Position numbers and translations under genes: made by a program. From positions 1-24,202 of the IMG/VR virus record IMGVR_UViG_3300042502_000635: DNA of 24,202 bases; one strand, written 5' to 3'. Under the pieces are notes generated by a model. That model ran no database searches. It saw only the letters and a program-made list of their open reading frames with translations, and was not told where the DNA came from. Positions 4,610-23,224 of the stretch are shown piece after piece (positions within the stretch are counted from its first letter, which is position 1; each line of letters opens with the position of its first letter). The DNA comes from a virus.

Positions 4610-4637
4610 ACTGTAGCGCAAGGGCTGACTTTGGCAA
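4610..4637 (-). promoter_or_regulatory. possible promoter for the fibre-block genes
   Basis: In the 85-base gap between the genes ending at 4652 and starting at 4566, the minus strand reads TTGCCA (4637-4632), a 16-base spacer, then TACAGT (4615-4610). Both boxes match four of six sigma-70 consensus bases. The -10 box is part of TGCGCTACAGT (4620-4610), an 11-base string that recurs exactly at 21319-21329 before the small plus-strand gene. The start codon is 44 bases downstream. The rest of the gap is a T-rich stretch near 4638-4650 without a clear hairpin. Confidence 0.35.
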
Positions 4638-15948: not shown

Positions 15949-15973
15949 GGGAGTTGTTCAGTGCAGCGATGGA

Positions 15974-16001
15974 ATCATAGCACTGGATCGGCGCATGAAA
16001 A
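15974..16001 (-). promoter_or_regulatory. extended -10 promoter for the tail chaperone/tape measure genes
   Basis: The minus strand reads TGC TATGAT (15982-15974), an extended -10 with five of six consensus bases, 16 bases after TTTTCA (16001-15996), which matches four of six -35 bases. The -35 lies in the U-tract of the terminator of the major tail protein. Predicted start is near 15967, leaving a short 5' leader to the ATG at 15948. The same GTGCTATG core is found behind the capsid terminator. Confidence 0.5.
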
Positions 16002-16021
16002 AAGCGGGACCGAAGCCCCGC
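15998..16021 (-). terminator. Rho-independent terminator after the major tail protein
   Basis: On the minus strand GCGGGGC (16021-16015), loop TTCG, GTCCCGC (16010-16004), then six T (16003-15998). The stem has seven pairs, one of them G-T, with a stable UUCG loop. It lies 21 bases after the stop of the major tail gene at 16043 and would set apart high expression of the tube protein from the downstream chaperone and tape measure genes. Confidence 0.9.
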
Positions 16022-16042
16022 CGTGTGATCATTTGCAAGCAA

Positions 16043-19232: not shown

Positions 19233-19362
19233 CGGGAAGCGATGCGGGGCTCGGCCCCCAGCATAGCCCCTTCGCTCACTGAAATGCTCCATGCCGGTTC
19301 CTCAGGGTTTGCTGCAGCGCTGCCTGAACGACGCCTTGCGGCCAAAGCCGACACGGGAACAC

Positions 19363-19371
19363 AACATAGCA
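19363..19371 (-). promoter_or_regulatory. extended -10 element behind the capsid terminator
   Basis: TGC TATGTT on the minus strand (19371-19363), 25 bases after the terminator U-tract. Four of six -10 bases plus the TGn extension are present; no -35 is visible at the usual distance. It would restart transcription into the 64-residue protein and neck genes, with a leader of about 120 bases. It shares the GTGCTATG core with the element at 15974. Confidence 0.35.
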
Positions 19372-19395
19372 CAAAAGCCGCCCAGATCGGCCATA

Positions 19396-19429
19396 GAAAA
19401 GCCCCCAGGACTATCACATCCTGAGGGCT
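19396..19429 (-). terminator. Rho-independent terminator after the major capsid protein
   Basis: On the minus strand AGCCCTCAGGA (19429-19419), an eight-base loop, TCCTGGGGGCT (19410-19400), followed by TTTCT. The 11-pair stem has one G-T pair. It lies 59 bases after the capsid stop codon. Confidence 0.9.
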
Positions 19430-19446
19430 CGACAGGCAACCAGAGG

Positions 19447-19464
19447 GAGCCGCCCCCACGGCTC
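19447..19464 (-). other. stem-loop between capsid stop codon and terminator
   Basis: GAGCCG (19464-19459), loop of six (TGGGGG), CGGCTC (19452-19447) on the minus strand; no T-run, so it is not itself a terminator. With the terminator it forms a double-hairpin 3' end that could protect the capsid mRNA. Just before it, GATCTGACC occurs twice, 20 bases apart (near 19487-19495 and 19467-19475). Confidence 0.55.
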
Positions 19465-19487
19465 GGGTCAGATCATACCATCAAAGG

Positions 19488-20617: not shown

Positions 20618-21301
20618 TTACCCCTGACTGCGAGCAGCAGCGCTCGCTTCGGCCTTCAGCTTAGCAGCCAATTCACGATCACTTGCCTCCAGGGCAATGC
20701 GATCTGTCACCCTGCCGCCAGGGAGGTACGGGTTACCGGCAGCAGCGGCAGGCTCACCCGTAGCCGGCCTTAAGCCCATGCCGCCACTGCCGCCCTTGGG
20801 CTTGAACAGGTAGGCGTGCTCAGGGTCTTTCCGCAGCCTGCCAGCAAGTTCCGCGACAGTGCCTTTTTGGCCCCCAACAGTAGCGGCGGTCTTGCCGTTG
20901 TCGTCAACAATTAACGAATTAAGTAAGCCCCAGGCATGAGTCGGATGATGTACCTCTGCAGCATTGAAGACGGCCAGGAAGTCAGCACGCAAACGATCCT
21001 GAACGCGCTCCTCCTCTATTTTAGCTTTTGCTGCCTTTTCCTCGTCCCGTTCCTTGCGCAGCGTTTCTTTTTCGTCTTCAGATTGCTTCAGTAGCTCTTG
21101 GTATCTCTGTTGATCTTCCAACTCTTTTCTCTTGCGAGCTGCCTCTTGATCCTCCAGCTCCTGAAGTCGATCGGCCTGCTTTCTCTTTTCAGTTAAAATT
21201 GCTTCCTTGTTGGCATCTAATGCGTTAAGTCGCTGCTTAAGCTCGTCTGCTTCGGCGGCCTTGGCCTGCAGTGCGGCGATTTCCTCTGGCGTGAGCGACA
21301 T
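20618..21301 (-). CDS. scaffold-like coiled-coil head assembly protein
   Basis: 227 residues. Residues 1-110 form one long charged coiled coil (ELKQRLNALDANKEAILTEK, then RKQADRLQELEDQEAARKRK). A less regular middle follows (FLAVFNAAEVHHPTHAWGLL, VAELAGRLRKDPEHAYLFKP), then glycine/alanine-rich linker and NPYLPGGRVTDRIALEASDR with a final helix. The C-terminal 'NP....GG..T......L.....ELAA.LKAEA' pattern is common in phage scaffold proteins, whose C-terminus binds the capsid protein. It lies directly before the capsid gene. The scaffold would leave or be cut before DNA packaging; no protease gene is seen nearby. Confidence 0.8.
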   Translation of the reverse strand: MSLTPEEIAALQAKAAEADELKQRLNALDANKEAILTEKRKQADRLQELEDQEAARKRKELEDQQRYQELLKQSEDEKETLRKERDEEKAAKAKIEEERVQDRLRADFLAVFNAAEVHHPTHAWGLLNSLIVDDNGKTAATVGGQKGTVAELAGRLRKDPEHAYLFKPKGGSGGMGLRPATGEPAAAAGNPYLPGGRVTDRIALEASDRELAAKLKAEASAAARSQG

Positions 21302-21318: not shown

Positions 21319-21329
21319 TGCGCTACAGT
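21319..21329 (+). promoter_or_regulatory. shared leader motif TGCGCTACAGT before the small plus-strand gene
   Basis: TGCGCTACAGT here is identical to 4620-4610 on the minus strand. GCTACAGT occurs also at 23195-23202 before the terminase. TACAGT could serve as a -10 box, but the nearest -35-like hexamer (TTGGAG, 21304-21309) is only 14 bases away, so a standard sigma-70 promoter is not well supported. The 55-base gap between divergent starts at 21301 and 21357 holds this site and little else. Confidence 0.35.
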
Positions 21330-21356
21330 GTAGCGTGTAACTGATCAAAAGCACCC

Positions 21357-21617
21357 ATGCCAACTCCAGACCCTAAAGCCACGGTCGCCGCACCAGCCAA
21401 GCCGCCTGCTGCGCCGGCGCCGCCTGTTGCACCGGACGACGAGCTGGATGACACTGAAGCCGCCCCCATGGTTGAAACCGTCAACATTAGCGGTCTGGTC
21501 ATGGAAAAGACCGTCGCGCCCAATGGCAAATGCGAAACCAGGGTTATCAAGCAGCCAATGATTGCGGCTGAACAAATTCGGGCGACCAGAACCTCTCAGC
21601 GTGAGCGCGGACACTGA
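21357..21617 (+). CDS. small acidic protein on the opposite strand, between portal and scaffold
   Basis: 86 residues: a proline- and alanine-rich start (MPTPDPKATVAAPAKPPAAP), an acidic patch (APDDELDDTEA), then a short folded-looking part (MVETVNISGLVMEKTVAPNG to TRVIKQPMIAAEQIRATRTS). No family recognised. The plus-strand reading is supported by a terminator in the same direction 18 bases after the stop, and by a leader like that of the terminase. The minus-strand frame across it (serine/glycine/alanine-rich) looks like a shadow. This is a solo gene in the moron style, or a small structural or host-takeover factor. Function unknown. Confidence 0.7.
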   Translation: MPTPDPKATVAAPAKPPAAPAPPVAPDDELDDTEAAPMVETVNISGLVMEKTVAPNGKCETRVIKQPMIAAEQIRATRTSQRERGH

Positions 21618-21635
21618 TTGCAGTGCTAGCACGAC

Positions 21636-21675
21636 AGCCCCCAGGTTGCCGGATCGCGCAGCTTGGGGGCTTTTT
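21636..21675 (+). terminator. Rho-independent terminator of the small plus-strand gene
   Basis: AGCCCCCA (21636-21643), a 20-base loop, TGGGGGCT (21664-21671), with a run of five T ending at 21675. Eight perfect pairs. On the minus strand the hairpin is not followed by T's, so it acts on plus-strand transcripts. It lies between that gene's stop and the end of the portal gene (21683). Confidence 0.85.
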
Positions 21676-21682
21676 AGTGTGC

Positions 21683-23143
21683 CTACGCACTGGCAAGCGG
21701 GCGCGTGCCGGCTTGATTTGCGTTTTGCATTTCCTGTTGCTTCATCATTGCCTCTTCCTTTGCTTTTTTGATTTTCTTGACAGCTTCGCCAAGATCCTTC
21801 AGGTCTACGTCTTCCGGTATCCACTCGCCTTGGAACAAAATGCGAAGCAGTAATTCTGTCGTAATCTGTCCCTTTTCCTCCAGATCACTTAGCACGCTTA
21901 CATCTTGGCCAAGCAAGCGGTAGAAGTCAAAGTCTTTATCGACCACAACTTTAGGCGGTTCAACGTTTCTGTATTCTGCGGCCATCCTAAAGGCTTCATT
22001 TAAGCCTGACTCAAGCTCCATCGCGGCAACCGCCAGCACGCAATTAGCCTGCTGATGGTCGATGCGTTTTGCATCGGCACTTTCTGCGACGAATTTTTGG
22101 CCCAGCAGCTTAGTAACGCCAAGATGCGAGATTTCGTTTTCTAGGCGATCCAGTAATTCCGCTTGCGCCGTAAAGGAACCCGCGTCACATTCGACCCAAT
22201 ACGCCTTGGAGCCGATGCTCATCTTAATGGCGTAGTTCTGGCCCGTAACACCTTCTGCGCCATCGTATTCTTCAAGCACTAGCAAGCCGATGGCGGCAAT
22301 GTGCAGCGAATGCAGTAAGTCGGCCAGTCGCCTGTAATGCGCAATGTTAAGGTGAGCCACGTCAGACAGTGGCGGAGAGGCACACAAGTAACCTTCTTTT
22401 TCCGTGTATATGTTCACGAGTGGAACATAGTTAAGCAAAAACTCTCCAAACTCACCCGTGCTTTTGTTTGCTTCCCTTATTTCGTAGGCCCCTGGCACGA
22501 TGACGCGAGCGATGGCGACATACTTCTCTCCGTAAGTGCCATCATTGACTTTGCGCTCCTCTTGATAGCGAAACATATCTAGCTTTGCGCCGGGGCTATC
22601 GCTTTCTCGCCGGCTGCCTAAATACTGCCACGGATCAACCGGCACAAAATAAGGGCGCAGCGGATCAATTTCGTCTACACCGGATACTGCAACCCGTCTT
22701 TCTGCGTCAACAATTATGGACGACATACCATAAGTCAGCGCAACCTCTAATCGTTTTTTAGCAAACTGATCCAAGGAAGTGCCGTCACCATCGACATTCT
22801 TCCTAAACTCGTTCTCCCAATATGGGTCGCCACCTTCCAGTCTGATACGCCTGCGAAGCACCATGCCAGCAGCATTGCTGATCAACCGCTTAACAAATGG
22901 CGCCAAAACAGATAAATTGACGCGAGCCTCCCACGGGTCATAATTACTACCATCTACCGAATTTTCCCTAGGCTCACGCGGCAAGTAAACTTCAGCGTTT
23001 GCATGTAAATACTCGGTGCCCATGGTAACGGCACGCATGATCTCCCATTTTTGGCGCATCTGCACTACTGTACTGTCCATGAAAAATGGACTTTCCTTGT
23101 CTGCATAATTTGGAAGTGATATTAGTGCCCTTGCAGTGTTCAT
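21683..23143 (-). CDS. portal protein, DUF4055 family
   Basis: 486 residues. The N-terminal region (MNTARALISLPNYADKESPF, then QMRQKWEIMRAVTMGTEYLH) leads to PWEARVNLSVLAPFVKRLIS. The middle has VALTYGMSSIIVDAERR and YFVPVDPWQYLGSR. Residues of about 265-375 show the DUF4055 signature parts: PLSDVAHLNIAHYRRLADLL, then HIAAIGLLVLEEYDG, and VECDAGSFTAQAELLDRLEN with a helix. The C-terminus is a lysine-rich helix (GEAVKKIKKAKEEAMMKQQE). The portal forms the ring through which DNA enters and leaves the capsid. Its start is 81 bases from the divergent terminase start. An AGGAG lies 17-21 bases upstream of the ATG, too far for a normal site. Confidence 0.9.
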   Translation of the reverse strand: MNTARALISLPNYADKESPFFMDSTVVQMRQKWEIMRAVTMGTEYLHANAEVYLPREPRENSVDGSNYDPWEARVNLSVLAPFVKRLISNAAGMVLRRRIRLEGGDPYWENEFRKNVDGDGTSLDQFAKKRLEVALTYGMSSIIVDAERRVAVSGVDEIDPLRPYFVPVDPWQYLGSRRESDSPGAKLDMFRYQEERKVNDGTYGEKYVAIARVIVPGAYEIREANKSTGEFGEFLLNYVPLVNIYTEKEGYLCASPPLSDVAHLNIAHYRRLADLLHSLHIAAIGLLVLEEYDGAEGVTGQNYAIKMSIGSKAYWVECDAGSFTAQAELLDRLENEISHLGVTKLLGQKFVAESADAKRIDHQQANCVLAVAAMELESGLNEAFRMAAEYRNVEPPKVVVDKDFDFYRLLGQDVSVLSDLEEKGQITTELLLRILFQGEWIPEDVDLKDLGEAVKKIKKAKEEAMMKQQEMQNANQAGTRPLASA

Positions 23144-23194
23144 CGCGGCAATGCGTTTGCTCCTAGTCTAGCCTGCCGGCTCCAAAAGGCATGA

Positions 23195-23202
23195 GCTACA
23201 GT
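23195..23202 (+). promoter_or_regulatory. GCTACAGT leader motif before the terminase, in the divergent gap
   Basis: The 81-base gap between portal (23143) and terminase (23225) holds GCTACAGT at 23195-23202. Around it the sequence ATG(A)GCTACAGT and then GTAAGATCAA resembles the leader at 21318-21350 (ATG(C)GCTACAGT, then GTAACTGATCAA). No good -35 box is visible. Two GCCGGC palindromes flank the area (23175-23180, 23219-23224). Confidence 0.35.
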
Positions 23203-23224
23203 CAGCCAGTAAGATCAAGCCGGC

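Follow-up and report, generated by a model that had tools for sequence, protein, structure and literature searches.

The 86-codon gene (ORF86) that runs against the portal and scaffold genes of an uncultured phage is, by its distribution among relatives, a core gene of one clade of uncultured phages. A near-perfect palindrome between ORF86 and the scaffold gene can with good reason be taken as a candidate symmetric bidirectional promoter. We give an even chance to the complete explanation, in which this clade core gene is transcribed from the palindrome acting as a bidirectional promoter and its product works in the same step as the scaffold. The window, meaning the whole stretch analyzed, was IMG/VR record IMGVR_UViG_3300042502_000635 (24,202 bases, positions 1 to 24,202). 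The structural genes, from the tail to the portal, were on the minus strand, and TerL was on the plus strand, head-to-head with the portal gene. The features of the locus are listed in Table 1. The palindrome, which was absent from the earlier note on this DNA, is the most informative feature near ORF86.

Table 1. Coordinates of ORF86, its neighbors, and the associated signals in the window.
Feature	Position	Strand	Remarks
Portal gene	21683-23143	-	phrog_145 and DUF4055; convergent with ORF86
Head scaffolding protein gene	20618-21301	-	phrog_206; divergent from ORF86; inferred -10 part of the palindrome, 25 nt ahead of the start
ORF86, 86-aa antisense gene	21357-21617	+	Homologs, two agreeing structure models, and purifying selection on the plus frame
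Intrinsic terminator of ORF86	21636-21675	+	Stem-loop 21636-21671 with a T-run behind it; predicted to act in one direction in the window and in both in some relatives
17-bp near-perfect palindrome GCGCTACAGTGTAGCGT	21320-21336	none	Read as overlapping divergent -10 elements
GCTACAGT, -10-like	23195-23202	+	Upstream of the divergent TerL; 8-mer identical to that of the palindrome
Third GCTACAGT of the window	4610-4617	-	TTGCCA ahead, 17-bp spacing

The earlier note had described a solo plus-strand gene of 86 codons with its own terminator between the minus-strand portal and scaffold genes, and both the reading frame and the hairpin were confirmed. The plus frame was open in 32/32 distinct sequences and showed a pN/pS of 0.39 over the 47 conserved C-terminal codons. 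Minus-strand frames across ORF86 were rejected as the true genes of the block, because stops interrupted them in 9 to 31 of the 32 distinct sequences and their selection signal was no better. One opposite-strand frame had a comparable pN/pS (0.47), as expected from its overlap with the plus frame, and contained stops in 29/32. The conserved frame was the plus frame, which disposes of the possibility that relatives conserve only a minus-strand frame. This pattern of substitutions marks ORF86 as a real protein-coding gene under purifying selection.

The hairpin of the window, followed by TTTTAG on the plus strand, had a dG of −28.2 kcal/mol and a z value of −4.7, and was equaled by 0/200 shuffles. 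The same finder detected a terminator 3' of ORF86 in all but one of the 39 distinct homologous sequences (38/39), compared with 7 of 195 shuffles at dG ≤ −16. The stem sequences of these terminators differed among the homologous sequences. In 16 of the 39 relatives the hairpin might stop the portal transcript too. The 21618-21682 gap of the window held no terminator in the portal direction, so sense and antisense RNAs may overlap here. Own terminators were also present at the capsid gene MCP (within 19293-19487) and at the gene before 15949-16042; with such short units elsewhere in the phage, an own terminator is not special to ORF86. At 19293-19487 and 15949-16042 the minus strand showed intrinsic terminators, each followed by a GCTAnnnT element, and these predicted signals divide the cluster of structural genes into several short units of transcription.

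Every portal relative at an identity of at least about 70% with an intact portal-scaffold interval had ORF86 at this position and in this direction. The portal search gave 61 loci, and an ORF86 homolog was present at the same place and on the opposite strand in 51/51 loci with an intact portal-scaffold interval. The ORF86 profile search gave 71 loci, and ORF86 again lay between portal and scaffold in each one that was examined, so patchiness among close relatives was not observed by either search. The newly found profile loci that were examined had the order capsid, scaffold, ORF86 reversed, portal, and TerL reversed. ORF86 identity fell to ~45% at the edges of the family. Among the best 80 of 581 matches of a portal-profile search, sister phages were found at 40–48% portal identity and none between these and the clade. 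The 63 sister loci drawn from these matches showed no significant match to the ORF86 profile. TerL, portal, scaffold, and capsid, wherever present in a sister locus, ran in one direction, and the scaffold ORF began 6–44 nt after the portal stop in most loci measured. The block, whose presence or absence in related phages the earlier note had considered informative, is kept throughout the clade and missing from all 63 sister loci. As ORF86 is universal in the clade and absent from the sisters, ORF86 and the reversed TerL represent shared derived features, and its absence from the sister loci makes a single gain of ORF86, at the root of the window clade, probable. Compared with the co-directional sister genes, the head-to-head arrangement of TerL and portal appears as a second rearrangement of this clade.

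A minority of sister loci carried other, portal-sense inserts at the junction, which were collagen-like in L210 and L223 and Lys/Ala-rich in L222, L224, and L227-L230. As these inserts are unrelated, the portal-scaffold junction tolerates insertions and acts as an insertion site. The small Lys/Ala-rich genes resemble ORF86 in slot, in size, in a low-complexity tail, and in a short hairpin-like motif around DG, but they lie on the portal strand. The DG-turn motif was alike by eye, but they were rejected as ORF86 homologs, since hhalign gave a probability of 0.3%.

The earlier note had further proposed that ORF86 is a moron, a kind of gene that often serves the host-phage contest, or that an antisense unit here could dampen portal and scaffold transcripts. 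Such damping may occur. Part of the moron proposal held, as ORF86 is a real gene, its terminator is conserved, a promoter-like element lies upstream of it, and sister phages lack it at the same junction. A moron of the usual kind, which would be patchy, accessory, and foreign in composition, was not supported, because the gene is universal and syntenic within the clade and the composition of its conserved part is not foreign. The conserved part had 53.3% GC, compared with 53.7% for the window, and high GC was limited to the Pro/Ala-coding tail. As for an own promoter, only a conserved −10-like element common to the scaffold gene was found. No positive evidence was obtained for a role in the host-phage contest, and PADLOC gave no match. 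Universal, syntenic presence marks ORF86 as a core gene rather than a recent moron of patchy occurrence, and it is fairly described as an old, fixed insertion that turned into one. Like the morons of phage late operons, which are extra genes equipped with a promoter and a terminator, it is a lone gene among structural genes, with a terminator of its own and a promoter-like element, and sisters lack it. It differs from them in being kept clade-wide at one position, in a conserved part that is not foreign, in a putative promoter shared with the scaffold, and in its antisense direction.

The palindrome lies midway between the starts of the scaffold gene (21301) and ORF86 (21357). It contains TACAGT (+, 21324-21329) and TACACT (−, 21332-21327), which overlap by three bases, so candidate TAnnnT −10 elements of both strands overlap in one short sequence, as in known bidirectional promoters. 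The palindrome was found in 123/123 locus copies with both genes (36 distinct contexts), and its center was 19–27 nt from the scaffold start in these copies. Its variation was almost confined to the positions free in TAnAnT, giving a core TAyAsTGTA with two variable positions, and T-A-n-A-n-T was kept in every variant seen. Each genome had one copy, and for this reason the palindrome was rejected as an operator or recombination site repeated across the genome. Dyads of such quality with 7-bp arms are expected by chance ~1.5 times per 24 kb; significance could not be drawn from a single sequence, and only conservation and position give the palindrome meaning. The promoter reading is supported by the distribution of GCTACAGT, by the TTGCCA spaced at 17 bp from the 4610 (−) copy together with its apparent counterpart in G002, and by the GCTAnnnT elements of sister phages. 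GCTACAGT occurred in 3 copies in 24.2 kb (0.14 expected), all intergenic and upstream of gene starts. In relative G002, TTGACA-17-TATAGT was observed at the apparently corresponding intergenic site to the 4610 (−) copy of the window. In the 23144-23224 interval, portal and TerL each showed a −10-like element, GCTACAGT (+) and GCTAGACT (−). A consensus two-hexamer sigma70 promoter with a −35 was found in the region in neither direction, and the palindrome may therefore depend on an activator, or serve as an operator instead.

In bacteria, −10 symmetry is an established source of bidirectional promoters, whose starts lie 7–25 bp apart (PMC12825309, PMC10268837); in E. coli, spacings of 18, 10, and 23 bp are common within this accepted range. 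The palindrome resembles the promoters described by Warman, Grainger and colleagues (PMC12825309, PMC10268837) in its overlapping opposite-strand −10 elements. Divergent starts are inferred at ~21336 (+) and ~21320 (−), ~16 bp apart, a spacing that falls within 7–25 bp. The palindrome differs from them in having an extended near-perfect dyad of 15–17 bp, in its conservation across a phage clade, in its place between two protein-coding genes, and in a spacing other than the common 18 bp.

At the portal-scaffold junctions of sister phages, GCTAnnnT was present in 20 of 56 cases (3% expected), and in nearly every one of these the distance to a downstream start codon was exactly 25 nt. The corresponding distance from the −10 to the scaffold start in the window clade was mostly 23–25 nt. 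Because sisters without ORF86 carry this element 25 nt upstream of the scaffold, the −10 element of the scaffold gene is probably ancestral and was probably made symmetric in the window clade.

ORF86 consists of a Pro/Ala-rich disordered tail (residues 1–37) and a β-β-β-α domain of three strands and one helix (residues 38–83). Two structure predictions from two alignments gave this same arrangement, with a pLDDT of 83–89 for the β-β-β-α domain. A coiled-coil-like stretch was observed in the tail or linker of some subclades. The protein had been called acidic, which is correct for the whole chain (pI 5.3) but not for the conserved domain, whose charge in the window copy is +2.6; the overall acidity comes only from the variable tail. 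The domain charge is not conserved and ranged from −2 to +3 among homologs. The statement that no family could be recognized stands, as neither profiles nor folds gave a convincing match: none was found by sequence in Pfam, PHROGs, or PADLOC, and none at E ≤ 0.001 by fold in BFVD or PDB, while VIA gave a best Z of 3.2; family membership is still conceivable. The fold searches recognized no DNA-binding fold. Homologs were found neither in bacterial genomes nor in deposited phages, and S-2L, S-H1, KBS-S-2A, MED4-117, PS-1, Me-ZS1, and AG-345-A17 lacked one.

In the proposed mechanism, ORF86 would have been acquired between the portal stop and the ancestral scaffold promoter, which then would have become fully symmetric. 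A host-type RNA polymerase would engage the palindrome in either direction. In one direction it would produce the mRNA of scaffold and capsid, and in the other a short mRNA of ORF86 that ends at its own terminator. With such a symmetric promoter, the capsid genes would be spared by an antisense insertion, and ORF86 expression would be tied to that of the scaffold. The product may act in the same step as the scaffold, either as a virion protein or as a small accessory of assembly, with the folded domain binding a partner and the Pro/Ala tail (coiled-coil-like in some subclades) as a tether. A role in head assembly is weakly suggested by the locked synteny and the putative promoter common to the scaffold; from these hints, a capsid-assembly accessory or virion protein would be the most likely function, with an autoregulator as the main rival. 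A stronger version is tentative and rather doubtful, namely that making the ancestral scaffold promoter mirror-symmetric let the clade gain a new antisense gene whose insertion spares the capsid genes, and which is co-expressed with the scaffold, became essential for head assembly, and represents a new protein family.

The autoregulator would be a small dimeric protein that binds the palindrome to repress or activate the two divergent genes, a switch timing scaffold and capsid expression. The near-perfect 17-bp dyad immediately upstream in every relative, once per genome, would suit such a protein, as would the basic folded domain of the window copy and the coiled-coil-like linker of some subclades. 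However, the domain charge of the homologs spans both signs, and the dyad is nearly invariant while the protein drops to ~45% identity. The variable dyad positions fit −10 degeneracy, other transcription units carry GCTACAGT without the dyad, and the fold searches pointed to no DNA-binding protein. We therefore regard this switch as unlikely.

We consider it similarly improbable that ORF86 is an old moron, that is, a host-directed or counter-defense gene, equipped with signals of its own, whose fixation came early in the clade. Gain at one node, absence from sister phages, an own terminator with a promoter-like element, and the lack of a known family agree with such an origin, but the gene holds a fixed position without patchiness in the clade, the GC of its conserved domain matches that of the window, known defense-related profiles gave no match, and its putative promoter is in common with a structural gene. 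Much less probable still is a unit acting mainly as antisense RNA, which would pair with portal-to-scaffold read-through RNA and separate the expression of the two genes, the protein being secondary. The window has no terminator stopping portal transcripts before the ORF86 block and would so allow overlapping RNAs, but in 16/39 relatives the hairpin could remove this overlap, and the plus frame is open everywhere under amino-acid-level selection.

Under the reading of the palindrome as a bidirectional promoter, single-base changes in the 17-bp element should alter two transcripts together. Reuse of promoter symmetry would offer new genes a route into a phage structural operon without cutting its expression, and the states before and after can both be compared, in sister phages without the insertion and in the window clade with it. 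ORF86 also represents a protein family without known assignment that is kept across a whole group of phages, which are uncultured and mostly of freshwater type.

By portal, the named phage most similar to the window was cyanophage S-2L (34%), and most of the nearest portals came from cyanophages. By capsid, the closest was the marine single-cell contig AG-345-A17, followed by S-2L (33%). Because of this resemblance, which is distant only, the host is probably a picocyanobacterium. S-2L and related cyanosiphoviruses differ from the window in lacking ORF86 and in the gene order around the portal, and a Prim-Pol of the S-2L type was not found in the long relatives. Relative to the window, the portals of L021, L023, L029, and L035 carried an alternative extension of ~100 residues at the C terminus. 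In L042 and L126, the divergent region between portal and TerL contained ~520 extra bases resembling an HNH-type homing endonuclease gene. A second TerL-like stretch (residues 29–167, 35–42%) was observed ~1.5–2 kb downstream of TerL in L096 (4846-5253), L131 (9218-9616), and L136 (9270-9596), and may be a partial paralog or a related ATPase.
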